Shown here: positions 22,249 through 64,000 of the stretch, piece after piece | Layout of the letters: each line of letters begins with the position of its first letter | Numbering within the stretch: position 1 is the first letter of the stretch | Origin: Nitrospirales bacterium | GTDB taxonomy: Bacteria > Nitrospirota > Nitrospiria > Nitrospirales > UBA8639 | NCBI GenBank assembly: GCA_021604005.1 | Contig: BQIV01000002.1 | Coordinates: forward strand, 1-64,000 | DNA: 64,000 bases | Direction of reading: 5' to 3' | The notes under the pieces: model-generated | Seen by the model: the letters and a program-made list of their open reading frames with translations, nothing else | The model's database searches: none | Told to the model about the DNA's origin: nothing | Program-made: the position numbers and the translations under genes

Positions 22249-22640
22249 TAGACTCCTACAGCTTCGGCCATTGCGCCCTGTCGTGCTAATTCAACCCACG
22301 CCTCACGAACGACACCTAAACACCGGATAGGACTATTGAGCCGAGTAGCGTCGTGATGAAGATTGGCCTGTGTCAGTTCATATTGAACATATTCATACAA
22401 ACGGCGTAAATCCGTTGCGATGGCGCCGCCTTTCTCCATATCCAGAGAAGCTGACAATTCATTGATGACCGCAAGCGCACGGTCAAGAAATCGAGCCTTA
22501 TCTTGCCGGTTGTCGGTTCGAATGCCTTCCTGGCCAAGCTTTAAAGACTGAATGACTCCGTCATATAGTAAGACCACAACTTGCACGGAGGACGCGGTTT
22601 GCACCTGAGTTTTGGCATAGAGTTGAGCACCTTGTATCAT
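22248..22640 (-). CDS. fliS: Flagellar export chaperone FliS
   Basis: Binds the C-terminus of flagellin and prevents premature polymerisation. The 130-residue helical bundle shows YAKTQVQTASSVQVVVLLYD and LNELSASLDMEKGGAIATDL-like spacing (ALAVINELSASLDMEKGG), then LRRLYEYVQYELTQAN, all typical of FliS. It follows fliD by 26 bases. Confidence 0.92.
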   Translation of the reverse strand: MIQGAQLYAKTQVQTASSVQVVVLLYDGVIQSLKLGQEGIRTDNRQDKARFLDRALAVINELSASLDMEKGGAIATDLRRLYEYVQYELTQANLHHDATRLNSPIRCLGVVREAWVELARQGAMAEAVGV

Positions 22641-22666
22641 ACTACCGACCCTTCCCTAGGTTGTCG

Positions 22667-24055: not shown

Positions 24056-24163
24056 AGTAAACGCTCCCTGTCATGTTGGTGCATCATGCGTGTTTAGAAA
24101 ATCTCAAGGACTACCGTAGGCTGTACCCACGCCGTCGACGAATATTTGATGGATCGTAACTCG

Positions 24164-24604
24164 TTACGCTTCTTCCTCAAGAAGAATCCCTGAATGCTCA
24201 TCAAAGAATCGCTGAGTACGTAAGACCTCTTCAGAAGGAATTTGACGTATCAGTTCCCCTGATTCCCGTTCAACGACTTTGATAACCACACGATCCGATT
24301 CCTCTTCAAGAGAAAATTGTACATGAGAATCGATCTGATCAAGGTTATTTTGAATCTGCGCAACTCGTTCTTTCAGATCCTGATTACCTAAAACGCTTTG
24401 CGTGTCTAAAGCATCTTGAACTTCTGAAGCACCTTCCGCTCCTACAGCACCGATACGATCTTTCGACGCAGAAGATAATTGAAGTGATGATTTCTTTTCT
24501 TGAACGTCGCTCAGATCTGCAGTCGCCTTGGCTCCAGAACGGTCTCGTACGCCTTGCCCGATAGACAATACAGCCGATGTAGGTTCCGGAACACTCTGTA
24601 TCAT
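24164..24604 (-). CDS. flaG: FlaG family flagellar protein
   Basis: FlaG proteins influence filament length. The conserved C-terminal domain is clear: VQFSLEEESDRVVIKVVERE, SGELIRQIPSEEVLR. The N-terminal 60 residues are low-complexity and variable, as usual. A strong GGAGGGAGG ribosome site precedes the ATG at 24604. It lies just behind the fliC hairpin and in front of fliD. Confidence 0.88.
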   Translation of the reverse strand: MIQSVPEPTSAVLSIGQGVRDRSGAKATADLSDVQEKKSSLQLSSASKDRIGAVGAEGASEVQDALDTQSVLGNQDLKERVAQIQNNLDQIDSHVQFSLEEESDRVVIKVVERESGELIRQIPSEEVLRTQRFFDEHSGILLEEEA

Positions 24605-24638
24605 AATGTCCTCCCTCCGTGGACATACGGAGTAGAAT

Positions 24639-24665
24639 GAGCAAGGCCGCCATGCGGCCTTGCTC
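24639..24665 (-). terminator. Strong hairpin between fliC and flaG
   Basis: A perfect 12-bp inverted repeat with a 3-base loop (GAGCAAGGCCGC / GCGGCCTTGCTC) starts 15 bases after the fliC stop and ends 34 bases before flaG. The U-run is poor (ATTCTAC), so it is more likely a partial terminator or an mRNA-stabilising structure that keeps flagellin transcript in excess over flaG-fliD. Confidence 0.7.
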
Positions 24666-24679
24666 TATTTCCCACTTCT

Positions 24680-25507
24680 TTAATTCAATAGCGCAAGCGC
24701 CTGCTGAGGCAACGTATTGGCCTGTGCCAAAATCGACGTTCCTGCTTGCACCAAAATTTGATTTCGAACGAATTTCGATGTCTCTAACGCAATATCAGCA
24801 TCTCGAATACGAGACTCGGCAGCCGTAAGGTTTTCACCACCTACTGCCAAGTTTTGAACAGCCGCATCAATCCGGTTTTGCAAGGAACCGATCGTGGCTC
24901 GAGCACTGGCCACAGCACTGATTGCACTGTCAATGCTTCCCAAGGCACTCAACGCCGAATCAGCCGTTGAGACATTCGTCGTCGACAAGCTAAGCTGAGC
25001 GGTATTGAGATCATCCAATTGAATCGATAAGGTATCGTTCGCAGAGCTTCTGAACCCTATTTGAATGGAAAGACTATTATTGTCCGCACCGCTCAATAGC
25101 TTCACACCGTTAAATTCTGTCACGGACGAAATACGGTCGATTTCAGATCTCAAGGCCACAAACTCTTGATCCAAGTATGACCGTTCAGTGGATCCGAGAA
25201 TACCACTGGCTGACTGTTCTGCCAATTCTCGAAGTCGTCCGAGGAGGTTACCGACATTGGCAGCGCCACCGTCGGCAATTTGCAGAAGACTGATTCCGTC
25301 GTTTGCATTTCGAGCAGCCTGATTAATACTTCGGATTTGCGCACGCAGCGTCTCTGAAATACCCAGACCAGCAGCATCGTCAGCTGCTCGGGTAATCCGG
25401 AGACCGGAAGAAAGACGAGCCACAGAACCATTTAACGAATTGGTATTCGTTTCTAAGTTCCGTTGAGCATTAAGGGACGCAACGTTTGTGTTTACAACAA
25501 GTGCCAT
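24680..25507 (-). CDS. fliC: Flagellin
   Basis: Filament subunit of 275 residues, a short flagellin made of the D0/D1 domains and little variable region. N-terminus: MALVVNTNVASLNAQRNLE, then LSSGLRITRAADDAAGLGIS. C-terminus: SRIRDADIALETSKFVRNQI and LAQANTLPQQALALLN. The middle (about residues 130-200) is rich in Ser/Thr and would carry any O-glycans. An AAGGAGG site precedes the ATG, and a sigma-28 promoter lies about 120 bases upstream. The glycosyltransferase genes upstream may modify this protein. Confidence 0.97.
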   Translation of the reverse strand: MALVVNTNVASLNAQRNLETNTNSLNGSVARLSSGLRITRAADDAAGLGISETLRAQIRSINQAARNANDGISLLQIADGGAANVGNLLGRLRELAEQSASGILGSTERSYLDQEFVALRSEIDRISSVTEFNGVKLLSGADNNSLSIQIGFRSSANDTLSIQLDDLNTAQLSLSTTNVSTADSALSALGSIDSAISAVASARATIGSLQNRIDAAVQNLAVGGENLTAAESRIRDADIALETSKFVRNQILVQAGTSILAQANTLPQQALALLN

Positions 25508-47888: not shown

Positions 47889-50800
47889 CTAAGCAGATTT
47901 TTGATGGGTACTTAAAGAAACAACCTCTCGAGCAACTCGCTCTAAAGTTTGTTCCATTTCGTCTAGGCCCTCGAAACCTGGAGCAATAAGCTTTAGCGTA
48001 TTTATATGGGTTTTTGCATCTTCAATATTGCCCACCTTAAGTTGTACACTTCCCAACGCGAAGCGGACTGAACAGTTTGTAGGATTTCGCTGGAGATAGT
48101 ATGAGAGTGAGTTCTCAAGTTCACCCCAATCCCCAAGGACCGTACATGCCCGAATCAACCAATGAATGGCCTCTTCATCATCGGGGTATGCACGCAGCAC
48201 CCCAAGCAATACTGTTTTTGCCTTGTCAGCTGCTGTTTGTCCCATATAAGCCATAGCCAGCCCCATGCGACACTTTCGAGGATCACCTCCATAGCGCAGA
48301 GCACTGCTAAAAGCATCGACCGCTTCTTGATAATTCTGATGCTGCATCGACAAAACACCAAAGACTACCCACCCTTCTGGGTGGGTTGGATGTTGGTGAA
48401 AAAACTTTTTAAGATACATTTTGGCTTTATCCAGTCTTCCCTGCACGAGGGCGTCTTGTGCATTTTGAAGTTCTGCCTCAATTGTCGGAGTTACAGATTG
48501 AGCAGAGGAAGACGTAGGATGGGATTTGGGAATATCCTGAATCGTGGCTTCTTTCGCTTGAGTAAGAATATCTTGGTACAGGCCCTTAAGCTGATCGACG
48601 GTCCGACTCCAGGTATACTGCAAAGCATCGTTCTGAAGATGCGCAGAAGGCGGAGCGCTTATCGCTTGAAGAACGGCATCTCGGATACTATTTGGGTCAT
48701 CAGGCTCACAATAATGTACACCGTACGGAAGATAGTCTTTGAGCGTCCCCCAAGACGTAGCAGCTACGGCACAACCGAAACGAGCCGCCTCAATTGTGAC
48801 GATCCCAGGCAATTCATACCAACTTGGTAAACAAAATACTTTGGCTCCTCGATAACACGATGCCAGCATGTCATCTGACAAACGATCAACAAATATTGTA
48901 GGGGCCTTTCGTGGGAATCGACGACACAGGTCATCATATTCTGCTTGATACTTAACCCCGCCGGTAACAAACACCATCGGAATTGGTTCATGCTGTAAGG
49001 CCTTCAAAAGCATCAATTGGTTTTTTCTCGTCTCAAGCCGACCAACACACAAAACATAATCTTTCACTTGATATTTTTCGCAAAACAATTCTGGACCAAC
49101 ATTAGCATTGAGATGGTCCATTCCGAACTTCACGACTTCAATACGTTTACTCTCGGGATAAATTTCAAGCAATCGGCGACGTTCTACTTCACCGCTAGCG
49201 AAGAGGCAGGACGCATGCTGCGCCACAAAGGAATTCTCAGAAGGTGGAACTGAAGGTAGTCCTCGAATCTGATTCAAAGTTGAAGTAAATTGTCCTTCAT
49301 CAAACCCACTTTCAAAATACTGCCTAAACACAGCAATCGACGCAGAACACTTTGAAAGAAATCGTGGCCAATCTTCAAACAGAGTTGTGACCACAAAAGG
49401 AATCCCTGCTTGCAGGGCTTCTCTTGCGCAGTGCTCTGTATATTCTGGCGTGGCAAAGTTGAATAAATGAACAAGATCGTAGCTTGTTAATGTCGATTGT
49501 CCCAGTGCAATATCGACCTGAATACCTGATTGCTCAAGACCATCTTTGAGCTTGTTCATCACTAAGGTATCTCCACCAGGATGAGACACGGCATTCTGTC
49601 GATTTTGAAATAACACTCGAAGAGGCCGCTCTTGTCTACTTGTGTCGTGTTTTTCGCTTATAGATGTACGAGGAACCGACTCCTTCTCTACGTTTGCCTT
49701 CATTGCAGGTTGCACATCACGTATCAAGCAATCTGAATTTATGCCTGAAGAAGCCTGCGTTTTCACAGCCTCTTGTTGCTTACGACAGGTGAGTACTTGA
49801 GCCTGTTCTAAAATAGGTTTTGCACGATCATAGTCTTTCGTTCCACGCAATAATTCGTCACCTAACAACCAATACGCATCAGAACATTGTGGAGGTCGCG
49901 TCATCGTTTGCTCTAGCAGTTTCACAACTTCAGATCCCACTCTACAACCGCGAAGCACAAGCGCCAGTCCAATTTGTGCCCATTCATCATCAGGTGGGGT
50001 AATCGGTTCATTAGATTGCTTCAAATATGGTAACTGATAGCGATAGTAGTCTTTCCAAAAATGGATTCGCTCGACTTCGCTAAGATGATGTTGAAAAGCG
50101 GTCGCTGTCCGTGTCCAACTTTCTTCTTGTTCCTTTCGCGGCAGAGCTGACTTACCACTCTCACGAAATAACCGTGATTGTGAGAGCACATGATCGACAT
50201 AATGGAATGAGTACCCTTGAGCTGCAATCCGGAGCCAGTATTCGTAGTCGATGGAGAAAAATAGATCTTCTCGGTATTTCCCTATTGTGCGTATAAGTTC
50301 TTTTGAATAAAACATCGACGGTTGATAGAGTTCTATCAGGTCAAACCATCTCATCAATATGGGTAATGTGATTGGCACTCTAGGAATCTGCAACCACGCG
50401 ATGGCTTGCTGTTCATCCGTCAAGAGAGTTTTTCCGTAGACAAGATGCCGACCTTCATGAGAATTCATTTCCGATGCGACAATTCGAAACACATCTTGAC
50501 CAAAATAATTATCATCTGCATTGAGCCAGGAAATGATGTCACCGTTTGCCATCGCAAGCGCCTTATTCAATGCTTCAGCTTCTCCATTATCTGGTTCGGA
50601 CACCCATTTGAGATGGGGATATTCTTTGAGTATCTCAACCGTTTCGTCTGTTGAAGCCCCATCGGCGATAATATGCTCAAAGTTGTCATAATTTTGTGCG
50701 AGGACGCTTTCAATACAGCCACGAATATACTGAGCACAATTCATAGTTGGAGTTACAACGGAAATCTTAGGACGTAAAATTGCTGACTCTCGTAATGTGG

Positions 50801-52100
50801 ACATAGCATTGACCTTTTTAGGGCTTTGAGATTTCAGAGGAATGGCCTGTGGTTCAGTCGTTCTCGTTACTTTTTTTTGAGCAGCTGATAGGGCTTCTCT
50901 CCATCGCTCTACAGACTGCTCCATTGAAAGCTGCTCAGCGATAGTTTGCCGTGCAGCCTCTCCAAGCTTTCGACACAAAGCAGAATCCATCGATAATTGA
51001 ATCGCATATTGAGCAAATTCCTTTGCATCATTAGCGACAAACCCATTCACTCCATGTTCGATAGGCGATGCACTTGCGACCGCTTTCATGGCAATAACCG
51101 GAACACCATGCGCCATTGACTCGAGTATTTTTATTTGACTCCCTGTTCCTCCCAGCATGGGACAAATCGTGAATCGACTGACTGTATACAGAGGTTTTAA
51201 ATCGGGTATATAGCCTGACAACTCGACTCCTTGAACCCCTTCTACCTTCTCTGAAAATCCACCAACCACGCGTAATCGAAATCCAGGAATCTTCTCTAAC
51301 ACCCGAGGTAATACTTTCCTAACAAAATATACATACCCTTGGAGATTGAGCGGATTATTGGACCCCACAAACAACGGTAATCCATCATATGAATTTTTTA
51401 TATGTTGAAGGGCACATGCGGTCGGAACAGTACGTACTGCCCTACATGTCGAGTGCGTCCGAATGATACGAGCATCTGATTCTGTAATGGTAACAACTCC
51501 ATCGTACGCGTTATAAACCTTAATTTCCTTGGACTTGTTTTCGTAAGAATGACTCCACAATTCATCATAGAACGCTTCATCAATTACCGAAGGGTCGACA
51601 TTTTCAGGTATAACCGGCTCTTTTAAGAATGGTGAGACCTTTTTGGTTAAATGCCCATTGATTTCTAGCAAGTCGACGCTCCTGAGTATGCGAGTCGCCG
51701 ACTTATACGCATCATCCACAGCAAGCTGCCCCCACCATGCGTAATAGATGAGCACAAGGTCCGGCTTAACCTCCAAAAAGACATTGCGAAACTCTCTCAA
51801 GAGCCAAGGAGTTTGATACATATCCCAAGTATCTGGATAATATACTTGTTGATTGAGAAGGAATAGTTTCTCAACTGAATTGGCTTGCGCAAGATGAATT
51901 TTAATGTTACATGCCTCTTCAAACTTTCTCACATCGTCAACATGCCAACCCGTATCAGGGTCTCCAAATAAATCTGAAGCAAATAATGTGATCTCATACC
52001 CTAAGTTCAAAAGTGCCATCAAATCAGCAAGTTGAACTTGATGCGCCCCCGTTCGTGCACCCAACGCATTAAATGGCCAAAAAATCAGTATCTTTTTCAT
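47889..52100 (-). CDS. Giant glycosyltransferase: GT4 - GT2 - GT4 - TPR
   Basis: A 1403-residue cytoplasmic polypeptide with three catalytic modules. Residues 1-400 are a GT4 enzyme (MLGGTGSQIKILESMAHGVP near 320). Residues 445-690 are a GT2/GT-A domain (ISVVTPTMNCAQYIRGCIES, DGASTDETVEIL, metal motif LNADD about 526-530). Residues 826-1180 are a second GT4 (CVGRLETRKNQ, SWYELPGIVTIEAARFGCAV). Residues 1208-1390 are TPRs (FHQHPTHPEGWVVFGVLS and repeats). It probably adds several consecutive sugars to one glycan. The GT2 module is nearly the same as the second one in the next gene upstream. Confidence 0.88.
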   Translation of the reverse strand: MKKILIFWPFNALGARTGAHQVQLADLMALLNLGYEITLFASDLFGDPDTGWHVDDVRKFEEACNIKIHLAQANSVEKLFLLNQQVYYPDTWDMYQTPWLLREFRNVFLEVKPDLVLIYYAWWGQLAVDDAYKSATRILRSVDLLEINGHLTKKVSPFLKEPVIPENVDPSVIDEAFYDELWSHSYENKSKEIKVYNAYDGVVTITESDARIIRTHSTCRAVRTVPTACALQHIKNSYDGLPLFVGSNNPLNLQGYVYFVRKVLPRVLEKIPGFRLRVVGGFSEKVEGVQGVELSGYIPDLKPLYTVSRFTICPMLGGTGSQIKILESMAHGVPVIAMKAVASASPIEHGVNGFVANDAKEFAQYAIQLSMDSALCRKLGEAARQTIAEQLSMEQSVERWREALSAAQKKVTRTTEPQAIPLKSQSPKKVNAMSTLRESAILRPKISVVTPTMNCAQYIRGCIESVLAQNYDNFEHIIADGASTDETVEILKEYPHLKWVSEPDNGEAEALNKALAMANGDIISWLNADDNYFGQDVFRIVASEMNSHEGRHLVYGKTLLTDEQQAIAWLQIPRVPITLPILMRWFDLIELYQPSMFYSKELIRTIGKYREDLFFSIDYEYWLRIAAQGYSFHYVDHVLSQSRLFRESGKSALPRKEQEESWTRTATAFQHHLSEVERIHFWKDYYRYQLPYLKQSNEPITPPDDEWAQIGLALVLRGCRVGSEVVKLLEQTMTRPPQCSDAYWLLGDELLRGTKDYDRAKPILEQAQVLTCRKQQEAVKTQASSGINSDCLIRDVQPAMKANVEKESVPRTSISEKHDTSRQERPLRVLFQNRQNAVSHPGGDTLVMNKLKDGLEQSGIQVDIALGQSTLTSYDLVHLFNFATPEYTEHCAREALQAGIPFVVTTLFEDWPRFLSKCSASIAVFRQYFESGFDEGQFTSTLNQIRGLPSVPPSENSFVAQHASCLFASGEVERRRLLEIYPESKRIEVVKFGMDHLNANVGPELFCEKYQVKDYVLCVGRLETRKNQLMLLKALQHEPIPMVFVTGGVKYQAEYDDLCRRFPRKAPTIFVDRLSDDMLASCYRGAKVFCLPSWYELPGIVTIEAARFGCAVAATSWGTLKDYLPYGVHYCEPDDPNSIRDAVLQAISAPPSAHLQNDALQYTWSRTVDQLKGLYQDILTQAKEATIQDIPKSHPTSSSAQSVTPTIEAELQNAQDALVQGRLDKAKMYLKKFFHQHPTHPEGWVVFGVLSMQHQNYQEAVDAFSSALRYGGDPRKCRMGLAMAYMGQTAADKAKTVLLGVLRAYPDDEEAIHWLIRACTVLGDWGELENSLSYYLQRNPTNCSVRFALGSVQLKVGNIEDAKTHINTLKLIAPGFEGLDEMEQTLERVAREVVSLSTHQKSA

Positions 52101-52136
52101 TGGCTAACTCGTAAAAAATCTTAACTCACCTTACGT

Positions 52137-54617
52137 TTATGCGACCGTGTCAGCGTTCCCTCTGCAGACCAATGGCAATGCGCCAAACTGACTTCGTACA
52201 GCTGGATCTTTCGACTCTAGGGCTAATGCCCATTCAAAAGCCTGTTGAGCCTCAACACACTGATTATGCTGAACAAGGTTCTCAGCATACAGTCCAAGGA
52301 GATTCGCAGTAATGAGAAGGGAATCTTGCGAAGAGCTTTGCAGTCTACTGCTTAAAATCTTATAGAAAAAATCTGGATCGACTCGTTTACATTCACGATA
52401 GGCGAGCATAAAACCTATGACACTTTCCTTACAATCGGAAAAATCTATAACTTCATCCTTGTAATAGTCAGCAGCGTGGAGTAATCGAAAGGTATAAAAA
52501 TCCTTAAAGAAATGAATTTGCTCTCCAACTTCTAAGCATGGGAGAAAAGCCATACAAATGTCCCACCATTCTTTGGCTTTTACCGCATAAGGCGTTTCCG
52601 TCTTACCTCCAGATCGATAAATCATCGATTTGGAAAACGCTTGATCAACAAAATGAAACTTGTACCCTTTCATGGCAATCCTAAACCAATACTGATAATC
52701 AGCTCCGTAACAGAGGTGTTCATTAAAGAATCCAACATCTTCCAATAACATTCGAGAGATGAAAATTGAAGGTTGAAACAGATTAAGCTTAAACCATCTT
52801 GTCAGCGTTACCATATTGATGGGTGCCATCGGCATCACCCAATGTGTCGCTTCTTTCTCGTCATTGACAAAAATTGTTTTCCCATACACTACATGCTGGC
52901 CATCAGCAGAACATAGTTCTTCGGCTGCCCGAAGCAATGCTCCATCGACATAACAATCATCGGCATTAAGCCAGCCCAGAATATCTCCAGTAGCCATTCG
53001 CAGAGCCTTATTCAATGCTTCGATTTCTCCATTGTCTGGCTCAGAAATCCACTTCACATGCGGGTATTCCTTAAGGATCTCGACAGTATTATCTGTTGAA
53101 CCACCATCCACGACGATATGCTCGAAATTCTCGTAATTTTGCCGCAAGACACTCTCTATACAATCGCGAATCAATGGACCGCAGTTATAAGTCGGCGTGA
53201 CTATCGAAAACTTTGGATGCTGCACTTGTCCAATACCTACATTTTTGACCAACGCCTCTTTCATCGCATGGTCTAATGGCTGCTCAACGCTCTTGGAAAT
53301 TGAACAGGTGTTCGTTGTGTGGATTCCCATCTTATGCAAGTCCTTCAGCCTCTCTTGGGCACGCACATGAGAAGAGTCAATTTCGACAAGCATCTCTAGG
53401 GTTTGGATAGCTCTCCTAACCTGACCTGTACGTTCATACATCATTGCCAATGCATAACGCACATTCATATTGGTGGGAAAACGAGAAATTGATTTAATCA
53501 GGGTTTCTACGGCACGGGAGTCATCACCTAATGCTGCATAGACAAATGCTAATGCTAAATGGGTTTCAACCTGTTCGGGATGTTCTCGAGCCAATTCAAT
53601 ACAAAACGGCGCAGTCGCAGATAAACTCGCTCGTACAATAGCTGGATCAGAACAGTTACTAGCTGACTCAACATTCTTTGCGTGCATCGAATACTGTTCG
53701 AGTGTTGATGCACTTAGCGTCTCGCCTTGAACATACCGACTCCATTGCCAAAACGGGTAATGAATCAGCATCAAGGTCTGCAGATCCCAATGCTCAGGCG
53801 ATTCCAGCACTGCATGAACTATGTCATCACCAAAATGATTCATCACTTTGCCGCGAACGAAATAGGGGACAACGTCAAGATAAGACTTAGATTTAAGCAT
53901 TGTAAAAATACGTTGAAGAACTTGAGACTGGTCCTCCCATGTGCGCCTTCCTGAAGAGGAATAGCTATCTGACCGAACTCTCAGGGCCGATAACGGTGCA
54001 GGGATATAGCAGATGCCTTGTCGAAAGCCGAGAACGAGTAAGGCAAACCAATCACAATGCCACTTCAGTTCTGAAGGATACCCACCAATATCTAGCAACG
54101 CGTTCTTTTTTACCACCGACGTATGACCAGCGATCCAATTCCCTCTAATGACTTGAACGAACTCTTCTGGGGAAAGATACCCAGGCGTGTCCCTCCATTG
54201 CAGGCGTGAAATCCTTTCAACATCGCTTTGATCCTCAAACCATACAGGGTCAGAGCAACAGAGCGGAGCATTGGGATGCTGAGCCAAAAGACTCATCGAT
54301 TCTTCAAGAAATCCTGGCAGGAATTTATCATCAGCCGAACACCCAACTATGTACTCACCCTGTGCTTGCTTCAAAAAAAGATCAGTTGAGTAAAGAGGCC
54401 CCTTGTTGGTGTCATTTTGAATTAACTTGACGTTGAATTCTCGTTGGACGAATGCGTCAATAATCTGAAGGCTGTTATCAGTTGAACAATCGTCAATAAT
54501 CATTATTTCAGTTGGCGTGAAAGACTGACTGAGAATAGACCCTATGGACTGTTCAAGATAATGTGCGTGATTGTAGTTTGGCACACATACCGACAGTGTC
54601 ATGTCTTGCATAGCCAA
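52137..54617 (-). CDS. Double GT2 glycosyltransferase with internal TPRs
   Basis: An 826-residue protein. Residues 7-230 are a first GT2 domain (LSVCVPNYNHAHYLEQSIGS, IIDDCSTDNSL, metal motif SADD about 95-98). Residues about 345-435 are TPRs (LALAFVYAALGDDSRAVETL, ALAMMYERTGQVRRAIQTL). Residues 468-715 are a second GT2 (FSIVTPTYNCGPLIRDCIES, DGGSTDNTVEIL, LNADD about 550-554), and the tail contains one more TPR-like hairpin. It is 36 bases ahead of the giant enzyme and shares a GT2 module with it, so the two probably act on the same chain. Confidence 0.88.
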   Translation of the reverse strand: MAMQDMTLSVCVPNYNHAHYLEQSIGSILSQSFTPTEIMIIDDCSTDNSLQIIDAFVQREFNVKLIQNDTNKGPLYSTDLFLKQAQGEYIVGCSADDKFLPGFLEESMSLLAQHPNAPLCCSDPVWFEDQSDVERISRLQWRDTPGYLSPEEFVQVIRGNWIAGHTSVVKKNALLDIGGYPSELKWHCDWFALLVLGFRQGICYIPAPLSALRVRSDSYSSSGRRTWEDQSQVLQRIFTMLKSKSYLDVVPYFVRGKVMNHFGDDIVHAVLESPEHWDLQTLMLIHYPFWQWSRYVQGETLSASTLEQYSMHAKNVESASNCSDPAIVRASLSATAPFCIELAREHPEQVETHLALAFVYAALGDDSRAVETLIKSISRFPTNMNVRYALAMMYERTGQVRRAIQTLEMLVEIDSSHVRAQERLKDLHKMGIHTTNTCSISKSVEQPLDHAMKEALVKNVGIGQVQHPKFSIVTPTYNCGPLIRDCIESVLRQNYENFEHIVVDGGSTDNTVEILKEYPHVKWISEPDNGEIEALNKALRMATGDILGWLNADDCYVDGALLRAAEELCSADGQHVVYGKTIFVNDEKEATHWVMPMAPINMVTLTRWFKLNLFQPSIFISRMLLEDVGFFNEHLCYGADYQYWFRIAMKGYKFHFVDQAFSKSMIYRSGGKTETPYAVKAKEWWDICMAFLPCLEVGEQIHFFKDFYTFRLLHAADYYKDEVIDFSDCKESVIGFMLAYRECKRVDPDFFYKILSSRLQSSSQDSLLITANLLGLYAENLVQHNQCVEAQQAFEWALALESKDPAVRSQFGALPLVCRGNADTVA

Positions 54618-57447: not shown

Positions 57448-58110
57448 TTATTCGAAAAAAATATTGGAGTAATCTCCGGTGTACCCAGCTTGCTGATAGA
57501 TCCAACGCCATTCTTCTGGCGTATGAAACGCCCGGCATGTCAATTGCCAATACATGAGGTTCACCTTCTCCCGCTCATTTCGATACGCCTCTACCACCAC
57601 ATATTTCGAACCTCGTGAGACGCGCTCTATCTCACTTAGGGCACGACTCAACTGGTAGTTATACAGGTTGTGCAATGTATTCACTGAATACACAAAATCA
57701 AAGGATTGGTCATTGAATGGAAGATTCTCTGCTTTCGCTAGTTGAAGACAGCCTTGAAGTTCAGGTTTAGCCGTTTGGATCCCGTATCGAGACGCATCTA
57801 TCCCCACCACTGTAGCGTTCGAAAGGAGTTGGGTGAATTCATACAACAAAAAGCCTCGCCCACAACCAACATCAAGAATGCAAGCATTTTGAGAAAGTCC
57901 GTAATGACGAATCATCGCCTCCGCAACTGCTCGCCATCGACCATCATAACGATATCCACCGTATCCATATCTCCGATCTCCATCCCAGTATTCCTTCCCA
58001 AAACGAGTGGCCACCTCGGCACAGACCGTCTTGTCATGCTCAACCACCCGCTGCAAGTAATTTCGTTTACTCACAGTATGTAGAGACGAAATAAAGTCAA
58101 TACATTCCAT
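57448..58110 (-). CDS. Class I SAM-dependent methyltransferase
   Basis: A 220-residue protein. Motif I is ACILDVGCGRGFLLYEF (about residue 76), followed by VVGIDASRYGIQTAKPEL, LPFNDQSFDFVYSVNTLHNL and SEIERVSRGSKYVVVEAY. A Tyr/Gly/Arg-rich segment (DRRYGYGGYRYDGRW) precedes the fold and is common in methyltransferases of glycan clusters. It is 12 bases after the epimerase gene and is the last intact gene of the split-transketolase operon. Confidence 0.83.
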   Translation of the reverse strand: MECIDFISSLHTVSKRNYLQRVVEHDKTVCAEVATRFGKEYWDGDRRYGYGGYRYDGRWRAVAEAMIRHYGLSQNACILDVGCGRGFLLYEFTQLLSNATVVGIDASRYGIQTAKPELQGCLQLAKAENLPFNDQSFDFVYSVNTLHNLYNYQLSRALSEIERVSRGSKYVVVEAYRNEREKVNLMYWQLTCRAFHTPEEWRWIYQQAGYTGDYSNIFFE

Positions 58111-58122
58111 ATCACAAATTAG

Positions 58123-59112
58123 TTAGGGTTGATGTTGATATTCCATCGGATATTGTACGATCATTTCCCAATGGCGCTTACTCCAATCAATGACGTCCAC
58201 AATACCTTCATGAAATGCAATTGAAGGAGTCCAACTCAATTCCGTCTTAGCCTTACCAGAGTCAATCACATAGGCAGAATCTTGTCCCACTCGTTCTTCC
58301 ACTTGATAAACAGCTTTCTCAAAATTGATGCTCAATCGTTCGCTAATTGTCCGAACCACATCTCGAACAGTTATTCCTTCATCAGGTGAAAGATGATAGA
58401 TTTGCCCAATCTTCCCACGTTCCAAAACAGCGAGTTCACCTTGAGAAACATCTCTAATATGAATATAGGACTTTACGGCCTTCCCACCACCATGCAATGA
58501 CACTTGCTTCCCCGAACGAAAATAAATTACGGATCGAGGGATAATCTTATGGAGCTGCTGTCGAGCCCCATACACGTTGGTAGCCCGAACCATGAGCAAA
58601 GGAAATCCAAACTCTTTATGATACAAATGGAGCAACGTATCAGCCGCAGCCTTAGAGGCAGCGTAGGGCGTGCTCGGATTAAGCGGAGCGTCTTCCTTTA
58701 CTGTCCCGACACACGAACCATAGACTTCGGGAGATGAAATATGCAGATATTTCTCTAAATACTTTTGTTTCCGCAAATGATTGACAAGTTTGGCCAATGA
58801 CACATTGTTCGTTTCATACCAATGTTCTGGATGATTCCAACTCAGTGCGACCTCACTCTGTGCTGCAAAGTTGACAATGTAATTGGGCTGCTCAGTGTCT
58901 AAGAGCCTCAATACTTCATCCATTTGAGAATTCAAATCAAGTTGATGAAATTGATACCGCGAAAGTTCGTGTCGACCATAAAACCTTAAAAACATTGGTG
59001 ACTTTTCAGGGGAACGACTAATTCCAATAACCGAATATTCACCATGATCAAGGAGAAGGTCAATAAAATCTTGCCCTGAGAATGAATTGCTTCCCAGTAC
59101 GACAACTTTCAT
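58123..59112 (-). CDS. NAD-dependent epimerase/dehydratase (extended SDR)
   Basis: A 329-residue nucleotide-sugar enzyme. ATG 59112 is chosen: it overlaps the upstream stop as ATGA, and the Rossmann motif (VVLGSNSFSGQDFIDLLL) starts right after it. The active site is in TPYAASKAAADTLLHLY (Tyr-x3-Lys), with the upstream motif HISSPEVYG where 4,6-dehydratases have (S/T)DEVYG. Also seen: VRATNVYGARQQLHKIIPR and SYIHIRDV. It looks most like a dTDP-glucose 4,6-dehydratase relative, but the Asp-to-Pro change makes a dehydratase role uncertain; an epimerase is possible. Confidence 0.85.
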   Translation of the reverse strand: MKVVVLGSNSFSGQDFIDLLLDHGEYSVIGISRSPEKSPMFLRFYGRHELSRYQFHQLDLNSQMDEVLRLLDTEQPNYIVNFAAQSEVALSWNHPEHWYETNNVSLAKLVNHLRKQKYLEKYLHISSPEVYGSCVGTVKEDAPLNPSTPYAASKAAADTLLHLYHKEFGFPLLMVRATNVYGARQQLHKIIPRSVIYFRSGKQVSLHGGGKAVKSYIHIRDVSQGELAVLERGKIGQIYHLSPDEGITVRDVVRTISERLSINFEKAVYQVEERVGQDSAYVIDSGKAKTELSWTPSIAFHEGIVDVIDWSKRHWEMIVQYPMEYQHQP

Positions 59113-60167
59113 AGGCACACTCCACTCGGCTCGCAATAATCAAAGACTGTTCCACGAATCAAATTTTGCTTCAGTATTGGCTCTATAAACTGTTTAGCTT
59201 TTTGAAATTGACCACGTTTAACTTTTTCATCCTTAAGCATACCGCCCGCAAAAACACGGCGCTTTGCTCCAATGGGCAAAAATTCATTGAGAAGAATGCA
59301 TGCCCATTTTATTTGATAGAGCGGAAACAACATCTTCGCCCGCTTCTGATGCTGCTCTGATTCTGGCAACTCGCTCGTGACATGTTGCACGAACACGTCG
59401 AACCACTTGACCGACACAGGAACCTCTGGCTGGCAGAAAAAATCACACACAAGTTTTGCAGGGTCATCCCATCCGGCATATTCAAAATCAATAAACCGAA
59501 GAGTAGCATTCACCCCAAGTAACGCGTTGTGAAACCCAAGATCCGACGGAGAGAGACATCGTTCCGACATGCTCAATATCTTGCCATAGGCTGCAGAGGT
59601 TATTGAGGACAAGACTTTTTGTTTTTCGTTTTCCCAGCATGGAAACAACGTCGATCGAATAAATTCCCATACCCTACGCTCGAAAGGCGTGGATGTCTGA
59701 ACCGACTCTAACCGCTTCACCCGTTTCTCGATACAATACACATGCTCAGCAATACTAAAGCACGACTCTGATGCTGCTGGAAGACTTAAGGCTCGCTTAC
59801 GATGCTTTTGACGATTTATCATCTGCACAAATTTTATTACTTGCTTCAGATAGGCAAGACACACTTCGTCTCGTAAGATTTTTCGACCAGGAATGTCCTC
59901 AAAAAATGTTACTCCTACCTCTTCCTCATAAATGAACGGCCAAGGCACATCACGAATTCCTGCATCCCAGATGAATCTGGAGAAATCGTACTCAGTTCGT
60001 TGACGCTTTCGAGTATCCCCTGGATCGTTGAAGTATTGTTTCGCGACCAATGTACAATCATTCGCCTGCACTCTCCATACTCGATTATTCCTTCCTCCTG
60101 ACAGTTCATCAATTGTCGACACTCCAGTCACACCATGCTTTTCCAACATGGCTGTGATTGGAGGCAT
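59109..60167 (-). CDS. Aminoglycoside-phosphotransferase-like (APH) small-molecule kinase
   Basis: A 352-residue protein of the APH/choline kinase fold, starting at ATG 60167, which overlaps the HAD gene stop by one base (TAATG). ELSGGRNNRVWRV forms the nucleotide loop and LVAKQY gives the ATP lysine. The catalytic loop is LSPSDLGFHNALL (Asp about 209, Asn about 214), where the usual His before the Asp is Ser. IDFEYAGWDDPA gives the metal Asp (about 227). In a sugar operon it probably phosphorylates a sugar rather than an antibiotic. Confidence 0.83.
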   Translation of the reverse strand: MPPITAMLEKHGVTGVSTIDELSGGRNNRVWRVQANDCTLVAKQYFNDPGDTRKRQRTEYDFSRFIWDAGIRDVPWPFIYEEEVGVTFFEDIPGRKILRDEVCLAYLKQVIKFVQMINRQKHRKRALSLPAASESCFSIAEHVYCIEKRVKRLESVQTSTPFERRVWEFIRSTLFPCWENEKQKVLSSITSAAYGKILSMSERCLSPSDLGFHNALLGVNATLRFIDFEYAGWDDPAKLVCDFFCQPEVPVSVKWFDVFVQHVTSELPESEQHQKRAKMLFPLYQIKWACILLNEFLPIGAKRRVFAGGMLKDEKVKRGQFQKAKQFIEPILKQNLIRGTVFDYCEPSGVCL

Positions 60168-60802
60168 TAGGCCGTCGTTACGCATCGATTTGACCACTCA
60201 CTCAACATGCACTGCAGAAACTCTCTCCAACTCCCTACTCGCGCCAAACCCTGGAATGAACTCGTGCGCTGATGTGGGTCAAACAAGACCCGATGCACTG
60301 AAGAAGGAAACTCTACACTCAGCAAAAACTCAGGAAGATCATCTAGAAACACGTCGCATTTCAGCGATCTAATGCGGTAGCATTTCCCAGTGGCGGTCGG
60401 TTCAAAGAACACCCGATCTTCTGAAAGCCCATACTTCTCTTGGCACATGAATCCTTGTTGAAACATCCATTCCAACGCTGACTCATGAAGATTGTACTGT
60501 GTTCCCTGATATGGAAATTGTGTCTTATGACTCACGACATAGATAGATATGTCTGCTTTTCTACAATGAGACAAAAACTCGAATACGCCAGGAAATGGAA
60601 TCGCTCTTTTCAGGAAAGGACCATACGCTCGTGATTGTAGCTCCGTCCAAAAATTTTCCTTTCCAATATGGCGCAAATAGTCTCGTATCGCAGTTTTCGT
60701 AGGCGGAATGCTGTTGGGCACTAATTTCTCTTCGATCGCCATTTGTTGAAACAACGCATCATACGAAACAATCGTATTATCAAAATCTAGACCAACGATC
60801 AT
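60167..60802 (-). CDS. HAD-superfamily hydrolase (sugar phosphatase candidate)
   Basis: A 211-residue HAD protein with the nucleophile motif GLDFDNTIVSYDALF at the N-terminus, motif II in ISIYVVSHKTQ (about residue 93) and the acidic motif IV in CDVFLDDLPEFL. It is therefore a probable phosphatase for a sugar phosphate. It is 20 bases after the dehydrogenase and coupled to the kinase. This pair of opposing activities (HAD and APH) resembles the phosphatase and kinase steps of nucleotide-heptose routes; that comparison is inference. Confidence 0.8.
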   Translation of the reverse strand: MIVGLDFDNTIVSYDALFQQMAIEEKLVPNSIPPTKTAIRDYLRHIGKENFWTELQSRAYGPFLKRAIPFPGVFEFLSHCRKADISIYVVSHKTQFPYQGTQYNLHESALEWMFQQGFMCQEKYGLSEDRVFFEPTATGKCYRIRSLKCDVFLDDLPEFLLSVEFPSSVHRVLFDPHQRTSSFQGLARVGSWREFLQCMLSEWSNRCVTTA

Positions 60803-60822
60803 CTTGAGCTCATCATCAGGAA

Positions 60823-61860
60823 CTAGGCGACCATCTTAAGCAATGGTCTCAAGGTCTTTCCTTGCTCTAGGTCACTAATCGCTTGATTCACATTTAGTAG
60901 CGAATATGGTTCATCTTGGAGCCAGTCGAACGTTAGGGAACGTGAAGCAATCAATCTTGCATATCGCTCGAAATCTCGATCAGGAATGCTGTCGCCTCCC
61001 CAAGTGCCTCGTAATTGCTTTCCACTATTAAGCTCTTTGGGATTTATTTTCATGTTCCGCCCATGTTTGGCATTACCAACGATAACCGCAATTCCCCCCT
61101 GAGAACGAACGGCCGACAATGCCATCTCCATCACGGTCGTTTGCCCACTGCATTCAATCGCGACATCCACGCCACGAGGGAAAATCTTGTGAATCTCCTC
61201 TAGAGAGTTGTGCTCTGTCGCATCAATACAATGTGTTGCACCAATACGCTCGGCTGTTTTTAACCGTTCCTTTCGCAGGTCGATTGCAACGATAGGGTAG
61301 GCTCCACTAAGACACGCTCCCGCTACAGCAAAACTTCCTACACCCCCAACACCAAACACGGCAAGACTATTCCCTGGACGAAGAGTAGCGGTATTCAAGA
61401 CCGCTCCGACTCCTGTAGGAACTGCACATCCAAGAAACGCTCCATCTGATAATCCAATAGTGTCTGGCAAAATTGTGAGTCGGTTTTCGCTCACGACAGT
61501 ATATTGACTGAATGTCGTGACTCCTCCGGCATTCACTTTATGTCCATTCCATTCGTATACAGTTCCTGGTACATCGGCTCCAGTTCCTTTTATCCATGAC
61601 AATATGACTCGCTGACCCACCTTAACCTTACGAACTCCCGCCCCAACTTCAAGTACGGTTCCGCTCCCCTCATGACCCAAACAATGCGGCAAAAACGGAT
61701 CAGCTCCACGATATCCATTGCACTCCAAAAGTTGAGTGTGACACACACCACTATATGCCATTTCAACTAAAACTTGGCCAGGGGCCAGCTTGGGTATTTC
61801 AAGATCTTCGATAGCAAGCGGCCTTCCGGTTTCGACAAGAATAGCTGCGACTGTCTTCAT
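60823..61860 (-). CDS. Zinc-dependent alcohol dehydrogenase (MDR family)
   Basis: A 345-residue medium-chain dehydrogenase. Catalytic-zinc ligands are in YSGVCHTQLLECNGYRG (Cys) and LPHCLGHEGSGTVLEVG (His-Glu). The NAD(P) motif is LAVFGVGGVGSFAV (about residue 171). The four-cysteine structural-zinc lobe of classical alcohol dehydrogenases is absent, replaced by a short loop (GADVPGTVYEWNGHKVNAGG). The ATG overlaps the end of the transketolase C-terminal gene (ATGA), so the enzyme probably oxidises or reduces its product. Confidence 0.88.
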   Translation of the reverse strand: MKTVAAILVETGRPLAIEDLEIPKLAPGQVLVEMAYSGVCHTQLLECNGYRGADPFLPHCLGHEGSGTVLEVGAGVRKVKVGQRVILSWIKGTGADVPGTVYEWNGHKVNAGGVTTFSQYTVVSENRLTILPDTIGLSDGAFLGCAVPTGVGAVLNTATLRPGNSLAVFGVGGVGSFAVAGACLSGAYPIVAIDLRKERLKTAERIGATHCIDATEHNSLEEIHKIFPRGVDVAIECSGQTTVMEMALSAVRSQGGIAVIVGNAKHGRNMKINPKELNSGKQLRGTWGGDSIPDRDFERYARLIASRSLTFDWLQDEPYSLLNVNQAISDLEQGKTLRPLLKMVA

Positions 61861-62813
61861 CTAACCAACTCCAGTTGTTTTGCATTTTGTTTTTTACATG
61901 TGCGTGACAATACGACATTCATGATCTTATGAGGGGTCAGCCCGAAGTAGTCACGCGCGAACTCATGCCCACCCGCCTCATGAAGGAATACATCATCGGT
62001 TCCAATGCAGATCAATTGTGTACCAAGCAACTGACGTTCTACCTGCCACTCGGCAATACTTCCACCCAATCCACCTTTACAACTATGTTCCTCAACCGTG
62101 ACAACCGTTGGAAACTTCGAGAATGTCTCACGAAGGAACTCTTGTTCCAAGGGTTTAACTGTATGCATGCTCACGACTTGAGTTGACACGTTTCGCCGCT
62201 GCAATAATGCAGCAGCTTCCATGGCTACAGGAAGGACATTACCGGTGCTGATTAAACAAACATCTCGCCCAGGTTTTACAATAAGACTTTTGCCTATGGT
62301 CATCTTAGGTTGATCTGTATGAACCACTGGTTCACCCTTTTTCCCCAGTCGAATATAGACTGGACCATCATGAGCAACAGCAGCACGAACAAGTTCCTGA
62401 ACCTCCCATGGGTCACCAGGGCATACCACCGTCATTTCGGGAAGCGCTTTGAGCAATGCGATATCTTCACAGGCATGATGGGTAGCCCCATTGGCAGCAT
62501 ATGCAAGACCAGCTCCAACACCAACAATCACCACTGACGCACGGTGATAGCATAGATCCACTCGAATTTGCTCTAAACAACGAGTGGTCGAAAATGATGC
62601 AATCGTATAAGTCAGAGGTTTCATTCCAGCCAACGCAAGGCCTCCGGCAACACCTATCATATTTGCTTCCGCCACACCACAGTTCACAAATCTATTGGGA
62701 TAACGGTCCTGAAAGGTATCAAAGAGATGATTACCAATATCGCCTGTCAGCAACACAAGACGCGTATCGTCTTCTGCCAATTGCGTCACAGTCTCTGCAA
62801 ACGCATTCCTCAT
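61857..62813 (-). CDS. Transketolase-like protein, C-terminal subunit
   Basis: A 318-residue protein with the pyrimidine-binding and C-terminal domains of transketolase/DXPS. Seen: LLTGDIGNHLFDTFQDRYP, RFVNCGVAEANMIGVAGGLA (with the glutamate that activates thiamine diphosphate), ATHHACEDIALLKALPEMTV and VEEHSCKGGLGGSIAEW. It pairs with the N-terminal subunit upstream (ATGA overlap) to form one split enzyme. Two-carbon transfer to a sugar precursor is the likely reaction; the substrate is unknown. Confidence 0.9.
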   Translation of the reverse strand: MRNAFAETVTQLAEDDTRLVLLTGDIGNHLFDTFQDRYPNRFVNCGVAEANMIGVAGGLALAGMKPLTYTIASFSTTRCLEQIRVDLCYHRASVVIVGVGAGLAYAANGATHHACEDIALLKALPEMTVVCPGDPWEVQELVRAAVAHDGPVYIRLGKKGEPVVHTDQPKMTIGKSLIVKPGRDVCLISTGNVLPVAMEAAALLQRRNVSTQVVSMHTVKPLEQEFLRETFSKFPTVVTVEEHSCKGGLGGSIAEWQVERQLLGTQLICIGTDDVFLHEAGGHEFARDYFGLTPHKIMNVVLSRTCKKQNAKQLELVR

Positions 62814-63613
62814 ATACGCATTAACTCCGCAACTGCAGAGGATAACTCTTCGTCATTTGGTACACGGTAATGCCAATTATTATCGTCTTCCATAAACGAT
62901 ATTCCTTTACCTTTGACCGTATGGGCGACAATGACCACAGGCTTTCCAGTGTTATCTGGTATGTCACGAAATACATCTGCCAACTCCAGAGAGTCATGAC
63001 CATTTACTTCGTACACACTCCATCCAAATGCTTTCCATTTTTGCGCTAGAGGCTTTAACTTCATAACCTCGTCACTTCGCCCGGTCGCCTGCCATTTGTT
63101 GTAATCAATGATTACAACAAGAGATTCCAAGTTATGGGCCGAAGCAAACAGTGCTCCTTCCCATGTTGATCCTTCATTGCATTCCCCATCACTCAACAAT
63201 ACGAACACCCGATACATTCGATTTTGCATTCTTGCAGCTAAACTTATCCCGCTAGCAACCGAAAGACCGTGCCCCAAAGAACCAGAACCTATTTCCACAC
63301 CAGGAACACAATAGGGGCTTGGATGTTCCGGCAAACAGCTACCCGATTGTGCATAGGTATTGAGAACATCCAAGGGGAAAAATCCTCGATGAGCCAACGT
63401 CGCATACAGAGCACTCGCCGCATGACCTTTACTCAGAATGAACCGATCTCGATCCGGATCTTGATAATTGCTAGGATCAATCCGAAGAACTCCACGATAC
63501 AATACTTCCAGAATATCCACACAACTTAATGCGGACCCCAAATGAGGCGTCCTCGCTTGATGTGACATACGAACGACTTCGCTTCTGAGAATAGTGGCAA
63601 TATTCTTCATCAC
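62810..63613 (-). CDS. Transketolase-like protein, N-terminal (TPP-binding) subunit
   Basis: A 267-residue protein carrying the thiamine-diphosphate-binding half. Seen: RMSHQARTPHLGSALSCVDI, RFILSKGHAASALYATLAHR, GSGSLGHGLSVASGISLA and the TPP motif LSDGECNEGSTWEGALFA-NHN-like IIDYNKWQATG. Split transketolases are common in secondary sugar pathways. The gene begins 5 bases after the upstream epimerase stop and is coupled to its partner. A housekeeping role is unlikely in this context. Confidence 0.91.
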   Translation of the reverse strand: MMKNIATILRSEVVRMSHQARTPHLGSALSCVDILEVLYRGVLRIDPSNYQDPDRDRFILSKGHAASALYATLAHRGFFPLDVLNTYAQSGSCLPEHPSPYCVPGVEIGSGSLGHGLSVASGISLAARMQNRMYRVFVLLSDGECNEGSTWEGALFASAHNLESLVVIIDYNKWQATGRSDEVMKLKPLAQKWKAFGWSVYEVNGHDSLELADVFRDIPDNTGKPVVIVAHTVKGKGISFMEDDNNWHYRVPNDEELSSAVAELMRI

Positions 63614-63618
63614 ACACC

Positions 63619-64000
63619 CTACGTAAGTACTAACGACTGCATTCTCTTAATGTTGTAATACTTATCATCACTCATCGAGTTTCTTATACGCCCCGCTGCA
63701 AATGCACCAACCAGATCTTCCACTGCCTGTCCCACAGTGTGCTTGGGAACAAATCCCAATTCTCGGCGAATCTTTTCCGACGAAATGTGATACGAGCGAT
63801 GATCATTGGTGTCCGTATAAATAATTTCCACATCGGGTCCAACTTTACTCTGCACCATCGCGGCAATGTCTGATACGCAATGATTATGATAGCCAGCATT
63901 GAAAACCTGCCCATTAATTTTCTCAGACGGCCAATTCAAGGATTGTGTGTACACCTCAACCATGTCTTGAATATGAATATTCGGCCTTTTTTGCTTACCA
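63619..64000 (-). CDS. NAD-dependent epimerase/dehydratase, C-terminal part (cut by window edge)
   Basis: The frame is open to the window end and encodes at least 126 residues of an extended SDR. KRPNIHIQDMVEVYTQSL, GQVFNAGYHNHCVSDIA and the tail YHISSEKIRRELGFVPKHTV are typical of the substrate-binding half of nucleotide-sugar epimerases. The NAD-binding N-terminus lies outside the window. It is the first gene seen of the split-transketolase operon. Confidence 0.82.
   Translation of the reverse strand, partial: GKQKRPNIHIQDMVEVYTQSLNWPSEKINGQVFNAGYHNHCVSDIAAMVQSKVGPDVEIIYTDTNDHRSYHISSEKIRRELGFVPKHTVGQAVEDLVGAFAAGRIRNSMSDDKYYNIKRMQSLVLT

Follow-up and report, generated by a model that had tools for sequence, protein, structure and literature searches.

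A split transketolase and a fused or paired phosphatase-kinase appear to define an as yet undescribed pathway, present in several phyla, for a nucleotide-activated sugar elaborated by two carbons (higher-carbon or branched) and intended for flagella and surface glycans. We give this reading a probability of about 55%. The genes lie at one end of the window, that is, the whole 64,000-nucleotide stretch of Nitrospirales DNA analyzed here. Seven of them had been singled out in a preliminary description, and after checking the coordinates we recovered all seven open reading frames where they had been placed, tightly packed on the minus strand. They are listed below with an adjacent methyltransferase gene.

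58123-59136, minus strand: SDR337, an RmlB/GMD-like NAD-dependent sugar-nucleotide enzyme, with the ATG at 59112 as likely start
59109-60197, minus strand: APH-fold small-molecule kinase, 362 aa (Pfam APH)
60167-60802, minus strand: HAD-family phosphatase, 211 aa (conserved motifs and predicted fold)
60823-61860, minus strand: zinc medium-chain dehydrogenase (Zn-ADH, MDR), 345 aa (Pfam ADH_N, ADH_zinc_N)
61857-62813, minus strand: TKC, C-half of the split transketolase, pyrimidine-binding and C domains (Pfam Transket_pyr/Transketolase_C)
62810-63613, minus strand: TKN, ThDP-binding N-half of the split transketolase (Pfam Transketolase_N)
63619-64000, minus strand: C-terminal part of SDR334, a GalE-like SDR cut by the window end
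57448-58110, minus strand: MT2, SAM-dependent methyltransferase, 220 aa (Pfam Methyltransf_11/31)

The Pfam Epimerase/GDP_Man_Dehyd domains of the SDRs in the seven-gene set were confirmed, and SDR334 is complete beyond the window (334 aa, contig C2 63619-64623). Several overlaps of 1 to 4 bases had been reported between these genes. This holds for three junctions, as 4 bases are shared by TKN and TKC, by TKC and ADH and, if SDR337 starts at ATG 59112, by APH and SDR337 (28 bases with the listed TTG). However, HAD and APH overlap by 19 to 31 bases depending on the start, and gaps separate ADH from HAD (20 bases) and SDR334 from TKN (5 bases). The seven-gene set is real but belongs to a larger one: HldE and MT2 are also members, as is in many cases a GmhA-like SIS protein, and these lie outside the region first described. 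The operon runs past position 64000 with genes for an HldE-like kinase/nucleotidyltransferase and for HddA-, HddC- and GmhA-like proteins; its upstream half also harbors SDR312, an Fcl-like SDR308 and an L-2-hydroxyglutarate oxidase. A nucleotidyltransferase, which the preliminary description had proposed to seek there, was found just upstream in two forms, one a nucleotidyltransferase-PfkB protein of HldE type and the other of HddC type.

The search for the same set in other genomes showed that it is conserved together across many phyla. Its core consists of nine genes (HldE, SDR334, TKN, TKC, Zn-ADH, HAD, APH kinase, SDR337 and MT2), often joined by the GmhA-like SIS protein. In 55 loci, retrieved by way of APH and largely from metagenome-assembled genomes, at least seven of the nine core genes occurred within one stretch, and these loci covered at least 12 named phyla. 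When only complete APH loci were considered (7.5 kb or more on both sides, n = 40), HAD was present in 40, ADH and SDR337 in 37 each, TKN and TKC in 36 each, MT2 in 35, SDR334 in 34 and HldE in 32. In contrast, ADH, HAD, APH, SDR337 and SDR334 were all absent from 19 other split-transketolase loci (Fisher p of about 1e-10 to 1e-15). Because the same set recurs across phyla, the seven-gene set is not a product of chance. The association also survives rearrangement, since the core genes occur in three different orders and are split into two blocks in the Gemmataceae. We rejected the possibility that the Gemmataceae lack the transketolase part, as these genomes carry it a few kilobases from the other block or at another site. 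In 13/13 checked genomes without the transketolase beside the kinase, it is encoded elsewhere. In most of the gene orders, the neighbor of MT2 is SDR337 or APH. The cassette is also present in a Herbaspirillum strain (Herbaspirillum rhizosphaerae UMS-37) and has probably spread horizontally.

Several other candidates were discarded. A plasmid search with APH gave a single distant match, in Solidesulfovibrio, at a locus with transketolase halves next to an APH and a protein of about 200 aa, together with pseudaminic acid genes, but without the cassette, and a TKN match on an Azospirillum plasmid belonged to an unrelated locus. The passages considered from the report on the Actinoplanes wps-2 split-transketolase cluster (PMC13390465) contain no HAD/APH/ADH set, and we did not count this cluster as the same set. 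A role in anti-phage defense was rejected as well, PADLOC giving no matches.

TKN of the window and 59 other cassette TKNs formed one clade (support 99/91). The best solved relative of TKN was 6yak and that of TKC the C-chain of the Carboxydothermus split transketolase (7.5e-58). H26, H66, G114, D155, E160, N185, H261, E411 and H473 were kept in all or nearly all cassette TKN/TKC sequences, and H100 was a glutamine in 17/63. Judged by sequence, the ThDP machinery is intact. The anion-binding pocket is kept but altered, because the Arg358 equivalent is conserved in cassette TKC and two other residues are replaced, Ser385 by Arg or Lys in 64/67 and Arg520 by Lys in 67/67 cassette transketolases. 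Furthermore, a tryptophan occupies position 187 in 63/63 cassette transketolases versus 0/23 other split transketolases. No other ThDP enzyme was found in the operon. The two-carbon transfer proposed earlier is plausible given the intact ThDP site, but chain extension, branching and supply of sedoheptulose 7-phosphate would all fit the sequence alike.

Supply alone, in which the transketolase would feed sedoheptulose 7-phosphate into a second heptose-nucleotide route while the other genes tailor an ordinary heptose and no new skeleton arises, seems quite improbable to us. Sedoheptulose 7-phosphate is indeed the classic transketolase product and the substrate of GmhA, and HldE- and GmhA-like genes are found within the cassette. 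However, the window genome already has a full-length housekeeping transketolase, the differences at positions 187 and 385 are strictly conserved in the cassette enzymes, and heptose loci are not known to carry a transketolase.

The cassette HldE-like protein has a reversed domain order, with the nucleotidyltransferase first and PfkB second, and scored below the curated cut-offs of TIGR02198 (124/345 bits), TIGR02199 (110/181.5) and PRK11316 (182/521). The best solved relative of its kinase half was a heptose-7-phosphate kinase (4e84), and a canonical HldE nucleotidyltransferase scoring above cut-off is encoded on contig C10 of the same genome. Similarly, the cassette GmhA-like protein was below the cut-off of TIGR00441 (66/209 bits), and a close GmhA is encoded elsewhere in the genome. 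The GmhA-like proteins kept the phosphate-binding serines, with Glu65 replaced by Asp and Gln172 by Glu in 20/20, substitutions that would be consistent with a changed ketose phosphate.

That no known nucleotide-sugar route uses this set, as first stated, is true of the set as a whole, but several of its members are related to enzymes of known heptose-nucleotide routes. The ADP-L-glycero-D-manno-heptose route of Gram-negative LPS comprises TktA, GmhA, HldE, GmhB and HldD. The cassette shares its front-half step classes (transketolase, SIS isomerase, PfkB kinase plus nucleotidyltransferase, HAD phosphatase and SDR) but differs in the reversed, below-cut-off HldE, in a HAD that is not GmhB and in the altered GmhA-like site. 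Moreover, the route has no counterpart of ADH, APH, SDR337 or MT2. The GDP-heptose modification route of the Campylobacter jejuni capsule consists of GmhA2, HddA, HddC, Cj1427 and Cj1428. It resembles the upstream half of the window operon, with its HddA-, HddC- and GmhA-like genes, SDR312, SDR308 and L-2-hydroxyglutarate oxidase. However, unlike the cassette, it is not known to include a transketolase, a HAD-APH pair or a zinc dehydrogenase, and most cassette genomes are without HddA/HddC nearby: of 41 complete cassette loci, only 4 matched the HddA profile and only 9 the HddC profile.

The cassette HAD had no match in Pfam, GmhB included. Its motifs DxDNT, S-H-K-T, Lys and DD were conserved in 31 homologues, and the predicted model (pLDDT 95.5) has a HAD fold, closest among solved structures to 5'(3')-deoxyribonucleotidases (TM about 0.67). 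In the APH kinase, the catalytic Asp219, Asn224 and Asp237 were invariant among 35 homologues, and the model (pLDDT 91.5) was closest to choline kinase/LicA (TM about 0.56). PDB sequence searches with either protein returned no relatives, and neither matched an NCBIfam family. Fourteen loci carry HAD and APH as a fusion, and the transketolase adjoins the pair in most gene orders, an arrangement that would suit a kinase, C2-transfer and phosphatase sequence. The idea that HAD is simply GmhB was weakened by three loci (L058, L059 and L066) whose cassettes contain a GmhB-like phosphatase next to HAD. The same three loci may cast doubt on HAD as the terminal phosphatase. In several other loci, GmhB neighbors HddC as part of a different module.

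We tentatively propose that the cassette is devoted to a single nucleotide-activated, heptose-like sugar and that the split transketolase adds two carbons to the skeleton of this sugar, a possibility that we hold short of probable. What the data show directly is which genes are present, their conservation and synteny, the fusion of HAD with APH, the intactness of the catalytic motifs and the transketolase clade; we infer every substrate, the order of the steps and the final target. The APH kinase would phosphorylate an acceptor aldose that the zinc dehydrogenase may have prepared; the role of this dehydrogenase is a guess. TKN/TKC would then transfer a C2 ketol from a ketose phosphate to the phosphorylated acceptor, and the GmhA-like SIS protein would convert the resulting longer ketose phosphate into an aldose phosphate. 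After phosphorylation of C1 by the PfkB half of the HldE-like protein, HAD would take off the terminal phosphate and the nucleotidyltransferase half would activate the sugar, which SDR334 and SDR337 would oxidize, dehydrate or epimerize and MT2 would methylate. In the window genome, the product would probably be transferred to flagellin. Transketolases can make octulose 8-phosphate (PMC5854111).

SDR337 harbors the motif [ST][ST]PE-VYG with an invariant Glu, and Glu137 and Tyr158 were conserved in 51/51. Its best solved relatives are proteins named dTDP-glucose 4,6-dehydratases, and it scored below the cut-off of TIGR01181. The best solved relative of SDR334 was 6vo6 (Campylobacter Cj1427; 1.6e-43, residues 6-313). 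SDR334 is 32% identical to SDR312, itself a near-full-length match to 6vo6 (residues 2-311, 1.9e-110). By homology, a Cj1427-type C4 dehydrogenase is present in the neighboring module, and SDR334 of the cassette is only its distant relative. In Zn-ADH, Cys40 and His63 were invariant and Cys145 was found in 49/57; the protein is without the four-Cys structural-zinc lobe and its nearest solved family is class III ADH.

The gene content would fit chain extension before activation as well as keto-sugar branching after it. Against extension, SDR334 and SDR337 look keto-sugar-forming, which would equally suit branching, the GmhA-like copy of the window genome has a leucine in place of the His180 equivalent, and a GmhA-like gene is nearby in only 14 of the 40 complete APH loci. 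If branching took place, GmhA/HldE-type enzymes would provide an NDP-heptose, SDR334 would oxidize C4, the transketolase would add a hydroxyacetyl group to the ketone, yielding a branched sugar with a tertiary alcohol, the zinc dehydrogenase would reduce the branch ketone and MT2 would methylate. The full-length relationship of SDR334 to 6vo6 speaks for this scheme, which we nevertheless regard as rather unlikely. Cj1427 couples C4 oxidation to alpha-ketoglutarate, and such coupling would fit the L-2-hydroxyglutarate oxidase genes found near the cassette in 7 loci and directly before SDR337-SDR334 in two. An oxidoreductase followed by a split transketolase is also the proposal for miharamycin and amipurimycin (PMC12247030), and Rif15 with rifamycin S indicates that a split transketolase can use a large ketone (PMC6002545). 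On the other hand, the proposed ketone branching by transketolases lacks an in vitro demonstration (PMC12247030), the HAD-APH pair, among the tightest parts of the cassette, is given no role, and the altered GmhA-like active site is left unexplained.

Related logic is found in natural-product clusters. The lincosamide octose cluster combines a transaldolase, isomerase, kinase, phosphatase and nucleotidyltransferase (PMC12945683, PMC5854111). As in the cassette, a dedicated C-C-bond enzyme gives an unusual ketose phosphate that passes to such enzymes and to SDRs (LmbR, LmbN, LmbP, LmbK, LmbO, LmbM/L/Z/S). However, that enzyme is a transaldolase, GDP-octose is made without an HldE-type protein, and neither APH nor a zinc dehydrogenase is involved; among the annotated operon genes there was no LmbR-type transaldolase, a transketolase standing in its place. 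The Rif15a/b, miharamycin and amipurimycin enzymes are likewise two-gene transketolases dedicated to a biosynthetic cluster, but in other clusters and hosts and, for Rif15, with rifamycin S as acceptor. For the sugar-branching enzymes of the miharamycin type, a keto-sugar acceptor has been proposed and only Streptomycetes have been reported (PMC12247030). YerE-type branching (yersiniose and relatives) also relies on a ThDP enzyme forming sugar C-C bonds in an LPS sugar cluster. Nevertheless, YerE is a decarboxylase-family enzyme using pyruvate, the other cassette genes are unmatched there, and no YerE-like decarboxylase-family ThDP enzyme was found in the operon. Bradyrhizose was dropped as a candidate product, as none of the papers listed for it connected it with a transketolase.

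Searches of the open-licence PMC literature found no description of the gene set. As this negative covers open-licence papers only, the pathway could already be characterized in subscription journals or under other gene names. We consider this very unlikely, given that HAD and APH have neither PDB sequence relatives nor an NCBIfam family and that a 2025 review of ThDP enzymes names only Streptomyces split transketolases for sugar branching, all uncharacterized (PMC12247030). Higher-carbon and C-branched sugars are known on bacterial surfaces, and the role of transketolases in building them is an open question (PMC12247030). A nine- to ten-gene set shared by so many phyla offers a direct test of transketolase-built sugars. 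If our proposal is true, it would name a large class of genes in glycan clusters now annotated only as transketolase, phosphotransferase or HAD hydrolase.

Elsewhere in the window, the following features bear on the target of the sugar.

24680-25507, minus strand: flagellin (Pfam Flagellin_N and Flagellin_C)
47889-54617, minus strand: downstream of the sugar genes, a pair of very large glycosyltransferases with multi-domain architecture (1403 and 826 aa)

The sugar-gene island sits between flagellin/fliD and flgK/flgL, and therefore the sugar probably decorates flagellin. Attachment to a glycan had been foreseen in the preliminary description; the neighborhood points to flagellin glycosylation rather than to a polysaccharide only. 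The two glycosyltransferases likely use the activated sugars. The larger one has Pfam domains of glycosyltransferase group 1 (in two stretches) and family 2 as well as TPR, and the 826-aa protein resembles it by eye.

Gene calls and family-profile searches confirmed the seven-gene operon of the preliminary description (58123-64000), on the minus strand: positions and families were as proposed, with overlaps of 4 bases at three junctions, given an SDR337 start at the ATG at 59112. Its boundary had to be moved. The window is the start (positions 1 to 64000) of the 252-kb contig BQIV01000002.1, and beyond it the operon continues; the SDR cut by the window edge is a whole 334-aa protein (SDR334). 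Along transcription, the order is L-2-hydroxyglutarate oxidase, SDR312, a NUDIX-like protein (family judged from its translation alone), an HddC-like nucleotidyltransferase, a Methyltransf_13/14 C-methyltransferase, the Fcl-like SDR308, an HddA-like kinase, a GmhA-like SIS protein, SDR364, an HldE-like protein (nucleotidyltransferase domain, then PfkB), SDR334, the genes first described and the methyltransferase MT2. The nucleotidyltransferase sought beyond 64000 thus exists twice, as the HddC-like and HldE-like genes. The first two genes are directly adjacent:

Contig 72707-74953 (L002:16707-18953 of a fetched stretch): L-2-hydroxyglutarate oxidase and SDR312

The oxidase scored 315 bits against a curated cut-off of 299, and SDR312 matched 6vo6, which we take to be the structure of Campylobacter Cj1427, over nearly its full length (1.9e-110). 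Cj1427 re-oxidises its cofactor with alpha-ketoglutarate, yielding L-2-hydroxyglutarate. If this chemistry applies, the adjoining oxidase would recycle the by-product.

Scanning genomes with APH as the query recovered 266 relatives of this kinase, and the best 80 of these were fetched and used to build profiles. At least seven of the nine core genes occurred together in 55 loci from 13 phyla named in the records and a few unplaced genomes, a sample that is biased because all loci were found via APH, and in which most are MAGs. An archaeal match (L129) may be a binning error. Among the 40 loci flanked on each side by 7.5 kb or more of sequence, HAD was present in 40 (fusions counted), the zinc dehydrogenase (ADH) and SDR337 in 37 each, the transketolase halves TKN and TKC in 36 each, MT2 in 35, SDR334 in 34, HldE in 32 and the GmhA-like gene in 14. 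Across 19 other split-transketolase loci, ADH, HAD, APH, SDR337, SDR334 and the GmhA-like gene were each absent (0/19), MT2 occurred in three and HldE in two. Three gene orders were found: HldE-SDR334-TKN-TKC-ADH-HAD-APH-SDR337-MT2 (this contig, Planctomycetota, Elusimicrobiota and others), SDR337-SDR334-HldE-ADH-TKN-TKC-HAD-APH-MT2 (Verrucomicrobiota) and SDR334-GmhA-SDR337-TKN-TKC-HAD-APH-MT2-ADH, followed further along by HldE and HddC (Pseudomonadota, Nitrospinota). In 14 loci, HAD and APH form a single fused protein. Where an APH locus lacked TKN, the genome, searched whole, carried a split-type TKN elsewhere (13/13); twelve stretches fetched around these TKN genes all contained SDR334, and HldE was absent from one only, a short contig. 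The cyanobacterial cassettes L058:8057-9320 and L059:8120-9380 harbor two small proteins in place of the zinc dehydrogenase (268 and 156 aa in L058, where a Pfam search of the pair gave no match), which may be a non-orthologous replacement.

In the TKN tree, 60 cassette proteins lay on one side of a branch (support 99/91) and 22 other split transketolases on the opposite side, with one label change versus 19.6 expected for shuffled labels. Branching within the cassette clade tracks organism phylogeny only loosely, consistent with horizontal transfer. The cassette enzymes keep His26, His66, Asp155, Glu160, Asn185, His261, Glu411, His473 and Arg358 (E. coli TktA numbering) and are expected to be active with ThDP. 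Trp replaces Ile187 in 63/63 cassette proteins versus 0/23 others, Arg or Lys replaces Ser385 in 64/67, Lys replaces Arg520 in 67/67, and Leu or Asn stands in place of Asp469; the substrate pocket is thus altered, with positive charge retained. Gly461 and Leu469 are shared with other split transketolases and give no evidence of cassette specificity. Gemmataceae-type genomes (L172-L175, L180-L182) have a divergent TKN, with His replacing Trp in the DYNKWQ motif, and the gene set in two separate blocks.

The HAD model (pLDDT 95.5) is closest to 5'(3')-deoxyribonucleotidases (13-16% identity) and the APH model (pLDDT 91.5) to choline kinase/LicA (TM ~0.56), both with catalytic residues retained. 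In SDR337 the 4,6-dehydratase Glu is retained, Pro occupies the position of the RmlB Asp, and 16/51 carry Arg for the usual Lys; SDR334 lacks such an acid. In the GmhA-like proteins the phosphate-binding serines are retained, but Glu65 is replaced by Asp and Gln172 by Glu in 20/20; the copy in this genome has also lost His180. Since housekeeping HldE-NT, GmhA and full-length transketolase genes are present separately in the host genome, the cassette copies are dedicated. These results show the cassette to be conserved and dedicated, its catalytic motifs intact.

We infer that its product is a nucleotide-activated heptose-like sugar carrying two extra carbons. We favour a C2 extension ahead of nucleotide activation because this would give the transketolase, GmhA, HldE, HAD, APH and the SDRs a role, along the lines of the lincosamide octose route (PMC12945683, PMC5854111). 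A serious rival is that the transketolase branches a 4-keto sugar, a scheme put forward as a hypothesis for miharamycin (PMC12247030). SDR334, by sequence match a Cj1427 relative, speaks for such branching, as do the L-2-hydroxyglutarate oxidase genes preceding SDR337-SDR334 in two other loci (L075 and L078). Possibly the transketolase merely supplies sedoheptulose 7-phosphate, but this would leave its specialised clade without explanation. Rif15 shows that split transketolases can be recruited for an unusual C2 transfer (PMC6002545). The main claim of the preliminary description, a conserved pathway not yet described, finds support within the limits of the open literature and the databases searched. 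Its wording that no known route uses this set needed correction: it applies to the set as a whole, whereas several members are relatives of enzymes from known heptose-nucleotide routes.

The surroundings point to a likely destination of the sugar:

Window 22667-24055: FliD, downstream of the sugar genes
Window 24680-25507: flagellin, downstream of the sugar genes
Window 47889-52100: giant glycosyltransferase (1403 aa), a single chain combining several GT domains with TPR-like repeats
Window 52137-54617: giant glycosyltransferase (826 aa), resembling the 1403-aa protein by eye in its GT domains and TPR-like repeats

With small flagellar-type genes, FliD and flagellin form a stretch at 22248-25507. 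Upstream of the operon lie FliW-like, FlgL, FlgK and other flagellar, chemotaxis and motor genes (L003:622-19592 of a fetched stretch; read from translations), and many glycosyltransferases separate the flagellin/FliD side from the FlgL/FlgK side. The glycan region so flanked (~26-74 kb of the contig) is most likely a large flagellar glycosylation island with flagellin as target. The window begins with a lipid A block (LpxK, MsbA-like ABC transporter), and a role in LPS is possible. GC drops across the island from ~0.50 to 0.40-0.46, as is common in glycan islands.

On the Solidesulfovibrio plasmid pDCAR1 (L136:13294-17478), a distant APH-kinase relative is flanked by a hypothetical protein of ~200 aa and by transketolase halves, inside a pseudaminic acid cluster; this locus may represent a minimal form of the system or a related one.
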